Shown here piece after piece: positions 6,854 to 14,169 of a stretch of 64,000 nucleotides of DNA (its first letter is position 1; each line of letters starts with the position of its first letter). A program made the translations under genes and the position numbers. Below the pieces are notes generated by a model that was given only the letters and a program-made list of their open reading frames with translations, searched no databases and was not told the origin of the DNA. This stretch comes from Paenibacillus pinihumi DSM 23905 = JCM 16419 (GTDB lineage Bacteria; Bacillota; Bacilli; Paenibacillales; Paenibacillaceae), in contig NZ_AULX01000023.1 of assembly GCF_000422505.1 (NCBI RefSeq), forward strand, positions 62,001 to 126,000. The letters are read 5' to 3'.

Positions 6854-7168
6854 TATATATTACCTCCTGGCATAATTTTTTTTTATTTCTGTCTTCTCTG
6901 CCCTCCCCTCTCAATCGTATTCGTGCCTAATCCCAAGAAGCCAATACTATGTTGAAGCCATAAACCGGATGAATCTGTCTGAATATTCCGGTGCATAGCC
7001 AGCACACACATATATACTTATATTGTAAATTATATGTAAAAATCCTTTTTTTTGAAATGAATAAATACTCCTAATTCTCCTTGTGTATTTATATAATTGT
7101 TTTAAATTTTGCAAGCAATTGTAGAATTTTGCCGAGTTTATGACCATCCCTTGTCTTCTCAAATTATT
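6854..7168. other. AT-rich intergenic region, no gene supported
   Basis: About 315 bases, very AT-rich around 7015-7110. It should hold the promoter of the secreted-protein gene. The only open frame, on the minus strand, has no ribosome site and a composition that follows the AT content. Confidence 0.6.
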
Positions 7169-7510
7169 TCAAATTAAATCAGACAATTTCAATGCAAAAA
7201 GCCGTTTATCCGGGTCCGCATCCGGCAAATAGCGGTGAAGCTGTGTATCCAGACTGGAAATATATCCGTCATAGATTGCAAATGCGACCGCCATTCCAAT
7301 ATAAGTGGATCTCGTGGAGTATACATTAAACTGGGGACTGTTATCGACGGTTCGCGCTCCCTTGTGAAAATGATGATAGCCGTTGTACCATTCATGCACA
7401 ATCCGATTATCCTTCATAATGCATAAAGCTGCTGCGGAAGCCTTGATCTGCTCCTGAATCTGCTGTGTATAACGGGTTAACTCATTTACTTCATTTTGAT
7501 TCCACTCCAT
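7169..7510 (-). pseudogene. Truncated, active-site-degenerate serine beta-lactamase-like fragment
   Basis: The 113-residue frame reads like the N-terminal third of a class C beta-lactamase/serine hydrolase: a strand with CIMKDNRIVHEWYNG, then NVYSTRSTYIGMAVAFAIYDGYISSLD, then LFALKLSDLI and a stop. In this family the YS-x-x-K motif supplies the nucleophile and base; here it reads S-T-R-S, so the Lys is missing. The frame ends just where the LLTHTSG-type block should begin, and I could not find the rest in any frame down to 6947. It is the last member of the WYL/BtrH-like operon, 36 bases downstream with a ribosome site. A deliberate short protein is possible but less likely. Confidence 0.55.
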
Positions 7511-7546
7511 ATATTTCCACCCCCAAAGGCCATTATGCCTTTAAGT

Positions 7547-8527
7547 TTACCTTAATGCAATATCATGGGCACGAATCGACAGCGTTTCGCGTATGACAAG
7601 GCGCAGAACCTCTACTGCCTGCTCCTCGGATGCTTTTGCAGCAGCAAATAGCGCTTGCAGCTCTTCTTTTGTTCTCTGATCCAGACTCATGTTCTGATCT
7701 GCAGCTGCAGCGTCCAGCTTCTGCAGCGCCTCGTCAAAGCCCGCTGTGACAGCAAGATAATAATCAGCCACCTCGCACAACGCCGGCCAGTATTCGACAA
7801 GTCCCTTCATGTAATCCCGGATATTCCGCTTGGCCGCAGTGTAGCAGCGAAGCGTTTCACGAAGAGCGGCAGAACTGTGACCGATGTGCTCAAGCGCTTC
7901 CGACAATGCTTCATACCCTGCGCTCCCGCAGCCGTAGTCTGCCTCCGGCAGCATCGGGTCATGGGACTCCCAACGGTGGACACACTGGACAAGCGACTCT
8001 TTGTAAATTTCCACCGGGTCCAGGGTGATCCGATGCTCAAAGATTTGATAAAACCAGTAAGGCGTTGAATTGCAGCCGAAGGATGTATAGCTCAGCAGCT
8101 TCAGCTCTGCCCCCGTGCCGTCTGAAATAAGCAACGCCTCCAGTTCATCATCATAGCCTGCCGCCACAACAAACCGATCATGCCAGATAACTGCTCCGGT
8201 ACCTGTGTTGATAAAGTGTTTAATCTGGTTAATCGCTTCTTTTTGATATAGAGGGAAGGTGGCGTCGAAACTAAAGCCAGCGCCCTGAGAGGTCATTATC
8301 CCAATAAAATCCGCAGCCAAAAAATGCTCCGCCATCCAGTTATAAGCCGTATGTGATTCCTCTGGCAAGCGGCGGTGAATAACAAAACGAAAAGCCGATG
8401 CGGTCATGCATGCGAGCATCGGCTTCGAGCAGGAAATCCACCCGCTATGAGTCAATACAGCATGCATGGCATCGATGTAAGATTCTGTTTCGATTGCCAT
8501 GGACAGGCCTTCAAGAATAACCCTCAT
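7547..8527 (-). CDS. BtrH_N-like (papain-fold-like) protein, copy 2
   Basis: 326 residues. The N-terminal half resembles the BtrH N-terminal domain (butirosin acyltransferase type, C39-peptidase-like fold): SAFRFVIHRRL, then MTSQGAGFSF, then AGYDDELEALLISDG, where the family has a D-x-x-G-type end. The C-terminal part is helical and rich in Ala/Glu. It aligns along its whole length with the gene directly upstream (AF-x-F-x2-H-x-R-L; AEH; YQ-x2-AI-x2-IK), so the two are tandem paralogues. Cys residues sit near the expected nucleophile position (C-S-K-P-M-L-A-C), but no clear His precedes the AGYDD motif. The ATG at 8527 follows GGGAGGGG. Substrate unknown. Confidence 0.7.
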   Translation of the reverse strand: MRVILEGLSMAIETESYIDAMHAVLTHSGWISCSKPMLACMTASAFRFVIHRRLPEESHTAYNWMAEHFLAADFIGIMTSQGAGFSFDATFPLYQKEAINQIKHFINTGTGAVIWHDRFVVAAGYDDELEALLISDGTGAELKLLSYTSFGCNSTPYWFYQIFEHRITLDPVEIYKESLVQCVHRWESHDPMLPEADYGCGSAGYEALSEALEHIGHSSAALRETLRCYTAAKRNIRDYMKGLVEYWPALCEVADYYLAVTAGFDEALQKLDAAAADQNMSLDQRTKEELQALFAAAKASEEQAVEVLRLVIRETLSIRAHDIALR

Positions 8528-8553
8528 GCAACCCCTCCCTGCAGCCTTCGTGT

Positions 8554-9558
8554 TTATTTCGGGGTATGTATGCCCCATCTGGGCAATGTGGTCCGCTTCG
8601 GATCAGGATACCGGGCAGACAAGCCGCGCAGCACCCCCATTGCCTGATCCTCAATCGCTTGCATCTTATGAAGACGGCCGGTTAATCCGGCAATTTTCTG
8701 CTTGTCGATCTGTCTCTCTCCATTTATCTTGGTCATACAGGATTCCATATCCGGGATAAGGGCAGCCAACTGGTCATACAGCTCGAATGCTTCACCTGAT
8801 TCCGGCCATATCCCTTTTGCTTCACGCAAATAAAGGCGGATTTCCTTTCTGGACTCCAGATAGGATTCCAGTATGTAAGCGGCTCCGCCTTCATCATAAT
8901 CCCCGCTGTCGAGCCCGCGAATGAAAAATGTATAGGCCAGCTTGCCCGATGCAACGTCTGTATTGGGCAGTGTTTTATGAGGGGTGTCCCAGTCATGGAT
9001 GGCAAGACGAAACGATTCAAGCAGCATCGATTCATAAGGGATATCCACCTTGCTTCCGAAAGACTGGGCGTAAAAAAAGCCTGTAAAATTAAGACCCAAA
9101 TTATCATACAACACAATCCCGTTTTCATCCGACCAGCCGTCTTTGTAGTAAAACACCCGATCCTCATCATCATAGCCATGGATAACACCAAATTCGGGTA
9201 TCCAGTAAATGACACCCTGGCCCCTATCCAGACTGTCCTTGATCCAGCCTATTGCATCCTGCTGATAATAGCGGAAGGTGGGCAATCTTGTCCTCGTCCC
9301 GTCAATAACAGTAAGCAGTCCCAGGTTATCGGCAACCGGCTTGTGCTCGGCAACCCATTGCCCATAGGCGGAGACTGACATCGGCAAGAGCCGTTCATGG
9401 ACGGTAAATTTGAAGGCCATGCCGGTAAGTCCGGATAGTCTGTACAACGGTCCATCATACAAACCGGCCGCCGTCAATATAGCATACAGACTGTCAGTGA
9501 ACGACTTGGATTGCCGCTTCATTGTCAGATCAAGCAGCTTGTAACCGGAAGGTGGCAT
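8554..9558 (-). CDS. BtrH_N-like (papain-fold-like) protein, copy 1
   Basis: 334 residues, first of the tandem pair. Its N-terminal region has LSGLTGMAFKFTVHERL and a VIHGYDDEDRVFYYKDGW block that matches the BtrH_N-type core. Where the second copy has Cys, this one has Gly/Leu, and I see no candidate catalytic Cys, so it may be a non-catalytic partner. The C-terminal half (YILESYLESRKEIRLYLREAKGIWPE) matches the paralogue and is helical. AGGAGGG lies 6 bases before the ATG. It starts 21 bases after the WYL regulator stops, so the two are co-transcribed. I do not know its function. Confidence 0.7.
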   Translation of the reverse strand: MPPSGYKLLDLTMKRQSKSFTDSLYAILTAAGLYDGPLYRLSGLTGMAFKFTVHERLLPMSVSAYGQWVAEHKPVADNLGLLTVIDGTRTRLPTFRYYQQDAIGWIKDSLDRGQGVIYWIPEFGVIHGYDDEDRVFYYKDGWSDENGIVLYDNLGLNFTGFFYAQSFGSKVDIPYESMLLESFRLAIHDWDTPHKTLPNTDVASGKLAYTFFIRGLDSGDYDEGGAAYILESYLESRKEIRLYLREAKGIWPESGEAFELYDQLAALIPDMESCMTKINGERQIDKQKIAGLTGRLHKMQAIEDQAMGVLRGLSARYPDPKRTTLPRWGIHTPK

Positions 9559-9579
9559 CGCTGTCCCTCCTATTCCTGA

Positions 9580-10488
9580 TCATGATGTTGATTCTTTTGT
9601 ACGATCCAGTATTTCTGTACATTTGCTTCGCAGCTTCTCACGCAGCCATCTCGGGGCAAGCAGCTCCTCCCAGCCTGCAACCAGAAGATGCTGCAAAAAG
9701 CTATCTGTGTCATGGAAGTCGACCTCATAAACCATCCTCCCGACGCTACGTGCCGGATAGCCTCTCCAGCTTGTTCCCTCCAGTCTATCCAGCAGCTTCA
9801 CCTTGGCGACAAAAGGCTGCCTTAATGGAAGATGGTCCTCAGCATCCGGTTTAAATTCACCAACCGTGCCAGCAGCCTCACCAATGGATAACTGGTCAAT
9901 TCCGTCGAGTCTCAGACTGAACGGGCGATCATAGCCAGCCTCATATACCAGGACATAATCTGCATGATAACGCGAAACGAAACGGAAGGGTGCCACATGA
10001 AACTGACGCTCTCCTTCAGGATCTTTATATCTTAGATGAACGGTTAATCCGTCTGAAATGGCATGAGAGAGCAGTTGCATAGTTTGAACAATTCTCGGGT
10101 CCGCATCAAACATTGGCAAACGGGCAAGCTCCCGGTTATCGCCGCCATCCCCTTCCGCAAACCGGTCGAGCAGCCGGGCAATACGTCTGACAGGCTCCGC
10201 ATTGTCGTAGCTGTATTGGCGGTACCGGTGCGCGAGATATTTGAGCACCTTTTTCTCTTCGTCTGTCATGTAGATGTAAGGCAATATAAAGGTTTCATCC
10301 AGATAGCAGTAGCCTCTGTTTTTCGCCACATAGTTTAAGGGAGCGCGCAGCGACATCTCCATATATTCAATATCCCGGGCTGCCTGCCGCCTCGATATCT
10401 CGAATTCCCGGGCCAAATGCCCGGCATTCGGGTATTTGGCCGCCCGTATCTGCTGATCGAACCACCCGATACGATGCATGTTGCTCAT
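9580..10488 (-). CDS. WYL-domain transcriptional regulator with N-terminal HTH
   Basis: A 302-residue YafY/PafC-type regulator. Residues about 18-45 form a DeoR-like winged helix (NAGHLAREFEISRRQAARDIEYM); a linker follows; residues about 140-220 hold the WYL Sm-like fold (HLRYKDPEGERQFHVAPFRFV, YHADYVLVYEAG, FSLRLDGID), and the C-terminal extension VAGWEELLAPRWLREKL is the usual WCX region. WYL domains sense nucleic acid or small ligands, and such regulators often accompany defence and stress loci. It is the first gene of the operon with the BtrH-like pair and would be expected to control it. Confidence 0.88.
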   Translation of the reverse strand: MSNMHRIGWFDQQIRAAKYPNAGHLAREFEISRRQAARDIEYMEMSLRAPLNYVAKNRGYCYLDETFILPYIYMTDEEKKVLKYLAHRYRQYSYDNAEPVRRIARLLDRFAEGDGGDNRELARLPMFDADPRIVQTMQLLSHAISDGLTVHLRYKDPEGERQFHVAPFRFVSRYHADYVLVYEAGYDRPFSLRLDGIDQLSIGEAAGTVGEFKPDAEDHLPLRQPFVAKVKLLDRLEGTSWRGYPARSVGRMVYEVDFHDTDSFLQHLLVAGWEELLAPRWLREKLRSKCTEILDRTKESTS

Positions 10489-10560: not shown

Positions 10561-10773
10561 TTATTGCGATTGTCCAGATGTGGAATGCACAACAATCCCG
10601 TCAATTTTCTCCTGGGTTACTTTACTGCATTTTTTGCATACCTTGATCGTCTGGCCGTCTGCATTCATTCTGCTGTATAGAAGCTTGATTCTAGTACTTG
10701 AGCAAATCGGACATGTGCCTCTTCCACGTGACGGAAGTGTCCACAGGGCGCGGCCTCTTTTTGTTTTTGCCAT
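10561..10773 (-). CDS. Small zinc-ribbon protein
   Basis: A 70-residue basic protein with two CxxC knuckles, CPIC (residues 21-24) and CKKC (46-49), spaced as in a zinc ribbon. A GAGGGG site lies 9 bases before the ATG. Zinc ribbons of this size bind nucleic acid or protein; no specific function can be given. It lies 72 bases upstream of the WYL regulator on the same strand, and could belong to that transcript. Confidence 0.7.
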   Translation of the reverse strand: MAKTKRGRALWTLPSRGRGTCPICSSTRIKLLYSRMNADGQTIKVCKKCSKVTQEKIDGIVVHSTSGQSQ

Positions 10774-10817
10774 ATTGGTTAACCCCTCATTTCTGTATAG
10801 TCGCCCTCATTATAAAA

Positions 10818-10846
10818 CAAATGGTAGGACATATAATGTCCTACCA
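10818..10846 (-). terminator. Terminator of the GH4/sugar ABC operon
   Basis: An 11-bp perfect stem (TGGTAGGACAT / ATGTCCTACCA) with a 3-base loop, followed on the minus strand by a T-rich run (TTTGTTTTA). It lies about 60 bases after the GH4 gene stop. Confidence 0.8.
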
Positions 10847-10907: not shown

Positions 10908-12218
10908 TCAGCCATGAAATTGAAACTGAGGCAAGTAAGCCTTGTTGGCATCCAGCAGCTCATTGCACATGGAACGAATATCGTCCAGGGACAACTCGGC
11001 AGAAGTGTGCGGATCAAGCATCGCTGCATGGCAGACCCCTTCCCTGTCTCCCTTGAGAGCAGCTTCAATGGTCAGAATTTGCGGATTAATGTTCGTCCGG
11101 TTGAGGGCCGCAAGCTGCTGAGGAAGCTCGCCGACATGACAAGGCGTAATGCCGCTGCCGTCCACCAGACAAGGTACCTCTACACAGACGTCATTGGGAA
11201 GGTTGGTAATATAATTGCGGTTCAGGACATTGGCGCCAATCTTGTATACTTTGTCCCACACCATCGCTTCTATAATATAGGAAGCATATTCATGCGTCCG
11301 TTGATGGGTCAAGCCTGTGTTGTGGATCAGCTCCTCCTTCGCCTGATTCCAATAGTCCTGCTGGGATTTTCCCCAGTCACGGTACATCAGAGTCTGAATA
11401 CCGAACCGGTCCAACAGTTCCGGATAGGCATTCTTAATAAAATAAGGCACATATTCCGCCGTATGCTGTGTCGACTCCGTGACATAATAGCCAAATTGCT
11501 TCATCATCTCATAGCGCACCCGGTCATCATGCGGCTCTGTGCGCTCAAGTGCCCGGCGTTTAATTTCCGGATACAGGTTCACACCGTCACGATGCACCTC
11601 CAGCAGCCAAGCCTGGTGATTAATGCCGGCAATTTTGGACTTGACGCCACTTGAATCCATTCCCAGCCCCTGCAGCAAATCAGGTACACAAATTTGCACA
11701 CTGTGGCATAATCCTACGGTCTTGATCGATGTCTCCCGCTGGATGGCACCGGTGACGATTGCCATTGGATTCGTATAGTTCAGCAGCCATGCGTCCGGGC
11801 ATACCTCCTCCATCTCTCTGGCAATATCCATCATGACCGGAATCGTCCGAAGTCCCCGCATAATCCCGCCCATGCCCAACGTATCCGCATAGGTCTGTTT
11901 CAGTCCGTATTTCAACGGAATTTCAAAGTCCTGAATCACCTGCGGATCATACTTCCCAACCATAATCGCATTGATAACAAAATCCGCATCCTGAAGCGCT
12001 TCACGCTGGTTGTCATAAGCCTTGATTGTTGCTCTTCCTTCATTAATATTGTTATTTAACTGGTTCAGCATCATCTCGGACAGCCTGAGCTTTTCCTTAT
12101 CGATATCCAGCAGTGCAATATGCGCGTCATGCAAGCCGGGTGTCAGCAGACAATCCCCAATCAAATTTTTCACGAAAATAATACTGCCTGCCCCAATAAA
12201 TACGATTTTAACGGACAT
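10908..12218 (-). CDS. melA: GH4 family alpha-glycosidase, MelA-like alpha-galactosidase
   Basis: A 436-residue glycoside hydrolase of family 4, which cleaves by an NAD- and Mn-dependent redox mechanism. The Rossmann motif is at the N-terminus (VFIGAGSIIF), followed by the NYTNPMA block, the metal-binding Cys in GLCHSVQ and the His in GINHQAW, in the order seen in E. coli MelA. Length and motifs favour alpha-galactosidase over 6-phospho-glucosidase; transport by an ABC system, not a PTS, agrees with an unphosphorylated substrate. It is last in the sugar operon. The exact sugar (melibiose, a galacturonide or another) remains open. Confidence 0.88.
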   Translation of the reverse strand: MSVKIVFIGAGSIIFVKNLIGDCLLTPGLHDAHIALLDIDKEKLRLSEMMLNQLNNNINEGRATIKAYDNQREALQDADFVINAIMVGKYDPQVIQDFEIPLKYGLKQTYADTLGMGGIMRGLRTIPVMMDIAREMEEVCPDAWLLNYTNPMAIVTGAIQRETSIKTVGLCHSVQICVPDLLQGLGMDSSGVKSKIAGINHQAWLLEVHRDGVNLYPEIKRRALERTEPHDDRVRYEMMKQFGYYVTESTQHTAEYVPYFIKNAYPELLDRFGIQTLMYRDWGKSQQDYWNQAKEELIHNTGLTHQRTHEYASYIIEAMVWDKVYKIGANVLNRNYITNLPNDVCVEVPCLVDGSGITPCHVGELPQQLAALNRTNINPQILTIEAALKGDREGVCHAAMLDPHTSAELSLDDIRSMCNELLDANKAYLPQFQFHG

Positions 12219-12256: not shown

Positions 12257-13147
12257 TTATCCCTTGACGCTGCCAAGGACGATGCCTTCCGCAAAATATT
12301 TCTGCAAGAACGGGTAGACAAGCAGCACGGGCACAGTTGCGACAAACACCTGGGCCGCCTTTGTCGTCCGGTCGGAAATATTCATCATCGAACGCCAATC
12401 CGCCGAGGTTGCCAGCGTCATGTCCCGGTTGACAATGACGGTCTGCAAGTAGCTTTGCAGCGGGTAGTTATCAGGATTATTCATAAGCATGAGCCCTTCA
12501 AACCATGAATTCCAATGGGTCACGATACAAAACAGCACCAAGGTCGCAATCGCCGGAGCTGATAGCGGGACCGCAATCTTCCATAAGGCTGTCCAAACAT
12601 TCGCGCCATCTATCACCGCCGCCTCTTCAATCTCCTTTGGCAGTGAGCGAAAAAAATTAAGCAGCAGAATCACATTGAAGATGGGCACAGCCCCTGGTAA
12701 GATGAGCGCCCAAAAGCTGTCGATAAGCCCCGTCGCCTTGATTGTCATATACCATGGAATCAGTCCGCCGCTGAACAGCATCGTCATGATGAAGAACCAC
12801 ACATACAAGCTCCGCCACTTGAACTGCGCCTTATCCTTGGATAACGGGTATGCAATACATATGGTAAGCAGCATATTGAGCGGAACACCGACCAGCACCC
12901 GCTTGACCGAGATCAGGAAGGAGGTTATAAACTCCGGCTTGCCGAGTACATATTTGTACGAATCGACATTAAAACCGACAGGCCACAGCCTTACCGCTCC
13001 CGAACCCACGGCAGAGCTGGAGCTGAAGGATATCGCCAGAATGTTCACGATTGGGAGCAGACAGGCAAGCGCTGCTCCAATCAGCACCATGTAATTGAAA
13101 ATGACAAAAGCTTTTCTGCCGGAAGAAGATTTACGAAATGCGGTCAT
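12257..13147 (-). CDS. Sugar ABC transporter permease (LplC/YtcP-like)
   Basis: A 296-residue inner-membrane permease of the carbohydrate CUT1 type with six hydrophobic segments. The cytoplasmic coupling loop is clear (EAAVIDGANVWTALWKIAVPL). It should pair with the LplB-like permease 120 bases upstream. The ATG at 13147 follows GAAGGA with a 10-base gap; a longer frame upstream is basic and non-conserved. No ATPase gene is in the cluster, so a shared MsmX-type ATPase encoded elsewhere is likely, as for other Lpl/Yes systems. Confidence 0.9.
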   Translation of the reverse strand: MTAFRKSSSGRKAFVIFNYMVLIGAALACLLPIVNILAISFSSSSAVGSGAVRLWPVGFNVDSYKYVLGKPEFITSFLISVKRVLVGVPLNMLLTICIAYPLSKDKAQFKWRSLYVWFFIMTMLFSGGLIPWYMTIKATGLIDSFWALILPGAVPIFNVILLLNFFRSLPKEIEEAAVIDGANVWTALWKIAVPLSAPAIATLVLFCIVTHWNSWFEGLMLMNNPDNYPLQSYLQTVIVNRDMTLATSADWRSMMNISDRTTKAAQVFVATVPVLLVYPFLQKYFAEGIVLGSVKG

Positions 13148-13269
13148 CTGATCACAATCCTTCAAGTGTAACGGCTGAGACCGCATTTCACGCAGTCGCA
13201 GCTTCGTTCACGCAAAAATAAAAAGATTCATCGGAGCAATTTGAACTATTACATCGTACCGGAACTTTT

Positions 13270-14169
13270 CTAAAAAATACGGTAATCGGTATACCGGTAA
13301 GCGAGCGCATACGACCCGCTCAGAAGAAGCAGCGATACTACAGATTTGAATAAGCCAACGGCTGTAGCAACCTCGTACTGAGCATCCTGAACGCCGATCC
13401 GGTACACCAGCGTATCAATAATATCGCCTGACACGTATACCTGCGGGCTGTACAGATTGAACACCTGGTCGAACCCTGCATTCAACACATTGCCAAGGCT
13501 TAATATCGTCATCAAAACCATCATCGGGACCAGGTTAGGCAATGTAATATGAAGTGTCTGCTTCCAGCGTCCGGCCCCATCCATAACTGCCGATTCGTAC
13601 AAAGAAGGATCAACACCCGCCAGCGCCGCAAGATAGACAATCATTCCGTAGCCAAATTCCTTCCATATTTCCGTCCCGACCAGCGTGAAGGGAAACCAGC
13701 TTTTGTCCCCCAGGAAGTAGACGGGTTCAATGCCGATTGATTGAAGCAGCCGATTCACAATGCCCTCGGACGGTGATAAAATATCGATAAAAATACCGCC
13801 CAGAATAATCCATGAAAGAAAATGGGGAAAATAGACGATCGTCTGCACAGAGCGCTTGATGAGCCGGTTCTTCACTTCATTCAGCAAGAGGGCAAATACG
13901 ACCGGAACGACCGCCAGCGCTATAATTTTCATTGCGGAAATAAAAATCGTATTCCACAGCACCTGATAAATATTAGGCATACTGAGCATATAGACGAAAT
14001 GATCCCAGCCTGCCCATGGCGATCCGAACATTCCCTTGGAGGGTGAAAACCGCTTGAAGGCCATTACAATGCCCGCCATCGGTATATAGTTGTAGATCAG
14101 GACTAAAATAACGCCGGGCAGCAGCAGCAGGTGAAAGATATGTTCATTTCTGAACTTGAGCTTTATCAT
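13270..14169 (-). CDS. Sugar ABC transporter permease (LplB/YteP-like)
   Basis: A 299-residue permease with six membrane segments, the family N-terminus (HLLLLPGVILVLIYNYIPM-type) and an EAA loop that reads ESAVMDGAGRWKQTLHITLP. It forms the second half of the transmembrane channel with the LplC-like protein. A stem-loop sits between it and the binding protein gene upstream, a common way to make less permease than binding protein. Ribosome site GGAGG precedes the ATG. Confidence 0.9.
   Translation of the reverse strand: MIKLKFRNEHIFHLLLLPGVILVLIYNYIPMAGIVMAFKRFSPSKGMFGSPWAGWDHFVYMLSMPNIYQVLWNTIFISAMKIIALAVVPVVFALLLNEVKNRLIKRSVQTIVYFPHFLSWIILGGIFIDILSPSEGIVNRLLQSIGIEPVYFLGDKSWFPFTLVGTEIWKEFGYGMIVYLAALAGVDPSLYESAVMDGAGRWKQTLHITLPNLVPMMVLMTILSLGNVLNAGFDQVFNLYSPQVYVSGDIIDTLVYRIGVQDAQYEVATAVGLFKSVVSLLLLSGSYALAYRYTDYRIF

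Follow-up and report, generated by a model that had tools for sequence, protein, structure and literature searches.

A window of 64,000 nucleotides from Paenibacillus pinihumi DSM 23905 = JCM 16419 (contig NZ_AULX01000023.1, positions 62,001 to 126,000) contains a compact operon in which the gene of a WYL regulator is followed by two tandem genes, here called C1 and C2, and preceded by the gene of a small zinc ribbon protein and by an operator-like palindrome. By profile comparison C1 and C2 match a family of domains found fused to, or directly behind, several unrelated transcription regulators. We give an even chance to the view that this family is an undescribed sensory domain of the Bacillota, in which the fold of carrier-protein amide synthases has had its Cys-His replaced by Ser/Thr-Glu and has been joined separately to extracytoplasmic function (ECF) sigma factors, WYL and AraC regulators, so that genes would be expressed in response to a metabolite or to a loaded carrier protein. 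The window would then hold the two-protein WYL form of the domain, with a private autoregulatory operator.

Fold and family of C1 and C2

C1 and C2 are paralogues (28% identity), and neither obtained a family name from Pfam or NCBIfam in the copies tested. The initial annotation had described both as BtrH_N proteins. A remote relation to the BtrH group stands, but membership of the family itself does not, since a hidden Markov model search with PF14399 (BtrH_N) matched none of 16 C1 and none of 16 C2 proteins at E<=1 (Pfam). Structural prediction, also suggested there, gave models of C1 and C2 whose best Foldseek matches, and the only ones to reach E<=1e-3, were chains of AziU2/U3. The papain-like part and the helical bundle of AziU2/U3 were both recovered (by Foldseek for C1 and C2, by VIA for C1 only), with template modelling scores (TM-scores) of 0.43-0.53, and VIA showed that the fold of C1 is common to the amide synthases CcbD and CtaG.

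The C1 and C2 profiles matched the regulator-linked domain family over about 300 columns (probability 99.9, E values of 2e-36 and 3e-34, respectively), and this family in turn matched the BtrH_N/DUF4872 proteins with a probability of 93.3% and an E value of 2.8e-7 (hhalign, alignment A4 against A3). The locus is one branch of the regulator-linked family and very probably not a butirosin-like acyltransferase operon. Elsewhere in the Paenibacillaceae, matches to BtrH_N were seen inside open frames of 1,000-2,900 aa, some of them synthase-like by eye (L068, L076).

Association of the domain with unrelated regulators

The genome of P. pinihumi itself contains a third relative (G000:C2, 349 aa), located directly behind an ECF sigma gene (L155:8085-9975), and this stand-alone copy also lacks a Pfam or NCBIfam name. 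Among search results from the Paenibacillaceae we collected 37 loci with 41 copies of the domain. This sample is not random: in one subset of 15 loci some were picked for their long frames, and a second subset of 20 loci was taken down the match list, skipping loci that were in the set by then and a single short partial frame. Seventeen of the 41 copies were fused behind an ECF sigma factor and 16 were found directly behind a sigma open reading frame (ORF), 33 of 41 altogether; in the list-ordered subset of 20 loci the figures were nine fused, ten behind a sigma ORF and one neither. Sigma factors were called with a profile made from five of our own sequences, and the call was checked with Pfam Sigma70_r2/r4 on five fusions and two upstream genes. 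The remaining eight copies comprised two fused behind Laminin_G, two in line behind a fusion, one behind a WYL-like helix-turn-helix (HTH) gene (L156) and three, including one close to a contig end, for which no such partner was seen.

Some of these loci show peculiarities of their own. In L162 (2227-4053) and L163 (2947-4779) Laminin_G_3 is placed in front of the domain with no regulator, for which there is no obvious reason. In L164 (2203-6096) a sigma-domain fusion is followed by two more divergent copies of the domain in line, and the sigma-domain fusions of L165 (11141-12280) and L169 (1837-2979) are followed by similar genes that look by eye like solute-binding proteins, with no obvious signal peptide by the same criterion. 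In another locus, L094 (genome G151; 7998-10100), a 570-codon sigma-domain fusion stands back to back with a complete WYL unit, the palindrome lying between them, so that both branches of the family, sigma and WYL, are found side by side.

The association is not restricted to sigma factors or to this family of bacteria. In a phylum-wide draw the domain was found in 20 of 299 genomes, 18 of them outside the Paenibacillaceae, and from 16 of these 18 we fetched 19 loci: in three the domain is fused to a regulator, in six it adjoins one and in ten there is none. The fusions involve WYL in G500 (Bacillota), a 647-codon frame with the WYL domain in front (60.5 bits in Pfam) and our domain behind, and AraC in L219 and L220. 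The adjoining regulators are AraC proteins in L207 (cut by the contig end), L208, L212, L215 and L216, and in L206 a neighbour that is WYL-like by BLAST and has no Pfam match. Two of the neighbouring AraC regulators were scanned and both contain GyrI-like small-molecule-binding domains. That one domain is joined to several unrelated regulators is the strongest functional evidence in this analysis and points to an unrecognised signal-sensing domain; judging from the sequences, a disarmed enzyme fold has apparently been recruited repeatedly by transcription regulators.

Loss of the catalytic residues

The positions of the active site were compared in a residue alignment of 52 C1, 52 C2, 42 other copies (the 41 from Paenibacillaceae and one in L094) and four BtrH_N references. 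The catalytic Cys and the catalytic His, both kept in the four references, were found in none of the 146 distinct relatives. At the Cys position C1 has Ser in 50 and Ala in two cases, C2 has Ser (38), Thr (5) or another residue (9), and the other copies have Ser (22), Thr (16), Ala (3) or Val (1); single columns are uncertain at such distances, the Cys column more so than that of the His. At the latter all 52 C1 proteins have Glu, as do most of the other copies (Glu 37, Asp 3, Phe 2), and hhalign likewise puts Glu on the His of BtrH. C2 is highly variable here (Arg 17, Gln 15, Gly 7, Asp 5, Ala 4, Glu 3, Lys 1). The Asp position is kept in 48/52 C1, 37/52 C2 and 33/42 other copies. It had been proposed from the window that one partner may be catalytic and the other not, with two Cys visible in the second copy. 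Neither idea was supported by the comparison: the first of these Cys is present in only three of 16 rows and the second only in the window (alignment A2), both proteins lack the catalytic Cys, and it is the more conserved C1 that has Glu in the place of the His. As part of the joint interpretation given below, we give even odds to C1 and C2 being pseudoenzymes of the AziU/CcbD/CtaG/BtrH group.

The same residues bear on two enzymatic explanations. One, close to the initial annotation, is a BtrH-type acyltransferase with an aminoglycoside or a peptide as its substrate. The fold common to CcbD and CtaG and the distant similarity of the wider family to BtrH_N/DUF4872 in profile comparison speak in its favour, but with the catalytic Cys and His gone and no Pfam match it is already contradicted unless Ser19 of C1 is an active nucleophile, and we consider it very improbable. 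The other is a repurposed enzyme, in which C1 and C2 form an active heteromer with non-cysteine chemistry that the WYL factor turns on in the presence of substrate or product. AziU3/U2 performs a sulfate-leaving ring closure and no acyl transfer, and this two-protein complex tops the fold matches of both models; moreover, Ser19 (50/52), Glu122 (52/52) and the Asp position (48/52) are strongly conserved in C1. Genome G138 has, within a few kb of the unit, what looks like a synthase cluster (L158:374-18999), containing a BtrH_N protein (41 bits), ABC transporters and long frames that by eye resemble nonribosomal peptide synthetases or polyketide synthases. On the other hand, the conserved positions are lost in C2, no biosynthesis cluster was noticed beside 13 other loci (first 70 residues of each ORF, by eye) and the regulator fusions point to sensing instead. 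A repurposed enzyme is a tentative explanation, unlikely in our judgement.

A conserved four-gene unit

Searching the GTDB contigs with C1 provided 13 Paenibacillus loci, all of them with the order WYL-C1-C2. Some match to C1 was present in 127 of 295 whole genomes of Paenibacillaceae and one at E<=1e-60 in 80 of them (tallied from the listing); within the same genus as the window, three of seven genomes have a match at E<=1e-3. Adding 40 further loci, hand-chosen among the genomes with stronger C1 matches, gave a total of 53 other loci, and since three of these repeat the same contigs, the window and the others make 51 distinct loci. The initial annotation had seen a four-gene unit made of the WYL regulator, two papain-fold-like proteins and a hydrolase fragment, and had proposed to look for this gene order in other Paenibacillus. 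The trio WYL-C1-C2, with C1 and C2 in tandem, was indeed found at all 53 loci, so this part is conserved in many Paenibacillus, but the hydrolase fragment was beside none of them and the fourth member is the zinc ribbon gene, an ORF that the initial annotation did not mention, present in 53/53 (51/51 distinct Paenibacillaceae loci including the window). It lies upstream in 51 of the 53; in the divergent L117 and L118, with C1 only 38-39% identical, it is behind C2 and the order is WYL-[palindrome]-C1-C2-zinc ribbon. A stop was found inside the C2 frame in G270. In a tally over genomes G000-G097 the zinc ribbon was found in all 27 with a strong C1.

L123 (G002, same genus; 6916-7893) is a decayed locus where the zinc ribbon gene, a palindrome with two mismatches and a 31-codon remnant of WYL are kept, with no match to C1 or C2 in the stretch. 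Stand-alone zinc ribbon genes were also seen just behind a small gene whose product starts with KY(I/M)NAD or similar (L126, L128, L130, L134; NYKNAKDIFPPELL in L130), and such small genes are the second kind of neighbour that recurs beside the zinc ribbon.

The WYL regulator had suggested a possible defence locus. BrxR-type WYL repressors bind inverted repeats and about half of the homologues are found with defence systems, according to PMC9122601, and an anti-phage operon with a BrxR-like repressor would fit such a picture. However, C1, C2, the zinc ribbon and the fragment match no PADLOC model, the only matches of the unit being to generic WYL models, and C1 had no match in 50,697 phage records, making a defence function highly unlikely.

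A palindrome overlapping the promoter

From the aligned DNA upstream of the zinc ribbon gene we obtained the consensus palindrome TACGACAT-NNN-ATGTCGTA, which is present within three mismatches in 51/51 distinct loci and within two in 49. A -10 box follows after 10 bp in 50 of the 51, and in 31 the box reads exactly TATAAT. Taking the -10 box as -12 to -7, the palindrome spans about -41 to -23 with its centre at about -32, and such an overlap with the promoter would suit a repressor, the WYL factor being the candidate protein to bind the site. The arms match each other fully in 22 of the 51 loci and paired changes are found in the window (C to G with G to C) and in L009 and L082 (C to T with G to A), as expected for the site of a dimer. 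The palindrome of L117 and L118 separates WYL from C1, indicating that it tracks C1, C2 and the zinc ribbon. Among 20 zinc ribbon loci elsewhere, 17 from genomes without a strong C1 and three (L140-L142) from genomes with one, it was found within two mismatches only in L123, and two others had a site with four.

No further site within two mismatches was found in the 753,635 bases of the 51 loci. In the own genome the palindrome of the window is the sole site with 0-1 mismatches, and 11 of 15 other genomes have the palindrome at <=1 mismatch, ten with one site and G121 with two; the extra sites in G000 (the own genome) and G121 fall inside ORFs. A palindrome at this operon only, within the loci examined, would also be expected of a ligand sink, that is, the inducible sequestration of a toxic small molecule that is bound by C1-C2 and sensed by WYL. 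The AraC regulators adjoining the domain in other Bacillota, with GyrI-like domains in the two scanned, agree with a small-molecule ligand as well. However, there is no known ligand, and sequestration is not required of the forms fused to sigma or WYL, so that we consider a sink quite doubtful.

Proposed mechanism

Starting from the unit, the palindrome, the domain relatives with their fusions and the lost Cys and His, all of them read in the sequences, we infer a self-contained autoregulated signalling operon made of a WYL switch and a disarmed AziU/BtrH-like pair, to which we assign about half of the total probability. The WYL factor would bind the palindromic operator overlapping its own promoter and most likely repress its own operon. 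C1 and C2 would probably pair, as AziU2 and AziU3 do, and accommodate in their remodelled active site a small molecule or a group linked to a carrier protein, with no acyl group being transferred. The pair would set the activity of the WYL factor, doing with two proteins what the WYL-domain protein of G500 would do as a single fusion, and the zinc ribbon protein would be the likeliest output.

Several results weigh against this signalling operon. The C1 model is moderate (predicted local distance difference test, pLDDT, 75.5; predicted TM-score, pTM, 0.74). In C2 the Glu at the His position has been lost as well, and the remodelled active site may catalyse some reaction. In G097 C1 is split over two frames and the zinc ribbon is on another contig (the region around this C1 is not among the fetched loci), and within G000-G097 the zinc ribbon is found without the trio in 23 of the 71 genomes lacking a strong C1, so it has a separate life too. 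The number of palindromes is not special either: at two mismatches the own genome has two sites and the reversed control pattern five, and this control gave 2, 2 and 1 hits in three of the 15 other genomes and none in the rest. Therefore, the evidence lies in the position of the sites and not in their number. Furthermore, good matches seem to occur once per genome, and a pair tuning the WYL factor would then control its own operon alone; the output would have to lie in C1, C2 or the zinc ribbon. This leaves room for the remodelled enzyme, for which the single good palindrome makes C1-C2 a natural output, and for the ligand sink.

Genes of the window

The features of the locus are collected in Table 1. 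The four minus-strand ORFs reported initially, spaced by 21-36 bases with ribosome sites, were confirmed. The gaps WYL to C1 to C2 to fragment are 21, 26 and 36 bases, and a Shine-Dalgarno-like stretch was seen by eye ahead of each ORF. The start codon of C2 is the ATG at 8527, preceded by GGGAGGGG. Pfam bears out the WYL regulator, while its N-terminal HTH (HTH_11, 17.4 bits against a cut-off of 25) and the WCX part are under their cut-offs. The zinc ribbon has weak Pfam matches, the best being PF22811 (21 bits against 27.2). The description of the last ORF as a degenerate serine hydrolase fragment is just sustained, PF00144 being reached with 27.1 bits against a cut-off of 27.0 over 87 of 329 positions; no SxxK lysine was seen in it by eye. 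Upstream of the unit and on the same strand are a family 4 glycosidase (10908-12218, Pfam), without relatives in the 53 other locus stretches, and two sugar-transport permeases by eye (12257-14169).

Table 1 Features of the WYL-C1-C2 locus (positions in the window)
Feature	Position	Strand	Basis
WYL regulator (predicted HTH-WYL-WCX, 302 aa)	9580-10488	minus	PF13280, 28.6 bits (cut-off 21.8)
C1, putative AziU/BtrH-like pseudoenzyme, Ser19 at Cys position, Glu122 at His position	8554-9558	minus	model, fold matches, residues
C2, second AziU/BtrH-like protein, Cys and His positions both lost, variable	7547-8527	minus	model, fold matches, residues
Serine beta-lactamase-like hydrolase gene, 5' remnant (113 aa), outside the conserved unit	7169-7510	minus	PF00144
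Small basic zinc ribbon protein (70 aa, two CxxC), first gene behind the palindrome	10561-10773	minus	
Operator-like palindrome TAGGACAT-TAT-ATGTCCTA	10825-10843	none	
-10 box TATAAT	10809-10814	minus	10 bp downstream of palindrome

Comparison with known systems

In the open-access literature we found no description of the regulator-linked domain or of a WYL-C1-C2 system. If the sensory interpretation is correct, the fold of an antibiotic-assembly enzyme would have been turned into a part of regulators, clearly marked by its Ser/Thr and Glu residues and encoded here in a compact operon that lends itself to testing. With the WYL-domain fusion of G500, the partnership between the genes of the window can be tested directly. 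Proteins unnamed by Pfam and NCBIfam (C1, C2 and the stand-alone copy of the own genome) would gain a likely use and one recurring ECF extension would gain a fold and a likely origin. Fifteen of 26 ECF groups with regulatory extensions are still to be studied (PMC8999054). Those described in the available part of that source include SnoaL, TPR, Cys-rich, WD40 and anti-sigma-like extensions, with no papain/BtrH-like one among them. Relatives of C1 occur as extensions at the C terminus of ECF sigma factors or as partners encoded behind them, and the regulator of the window is a WYL protein and not a sigma factor.

The closest match in fold, as judged from the predicted models, would be AziU2/AziU3 of the azinomycin pathway (PDB 8gs1, 7wuw), but the identity to C1/C2 is only 11-14%. 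Unlike AziU2/AziU3, the C1-C2 unit has a WYL regulator, a zinc ribbon and an operator-like palindrome, and no azabicycle pathway was noticed near it, though no search was aimed at one. Azinomycin sulfation and aziridine formation are described in PMC9570651, where the accessible portion does not name AziU3. With regard to CcbD, CtaG and BtrH (PF14399 and DUF4872), the family of C1/C2 differs in having the Cys mostly replaced by Ser/Thr and the His mostly by Glu, and C1 and C2 fall under Pfam detection as BtrH-like proteins; BtrH_N itself has been placed near the C39 and C70 families (PMC10318531). Finally, BrxR represses via inverted repeats (PMC9122601), and a WYL protein with a putative N-terminal HTH and an inverted repeat at its own promoter is what the locus has in common with BrxR-type repressors. 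Unlike these, the WYL regulator of the window is accompanied by putative pseudoenzymes and a zinc ribbon protein, in a unit that matches the generic WYL defence models only.

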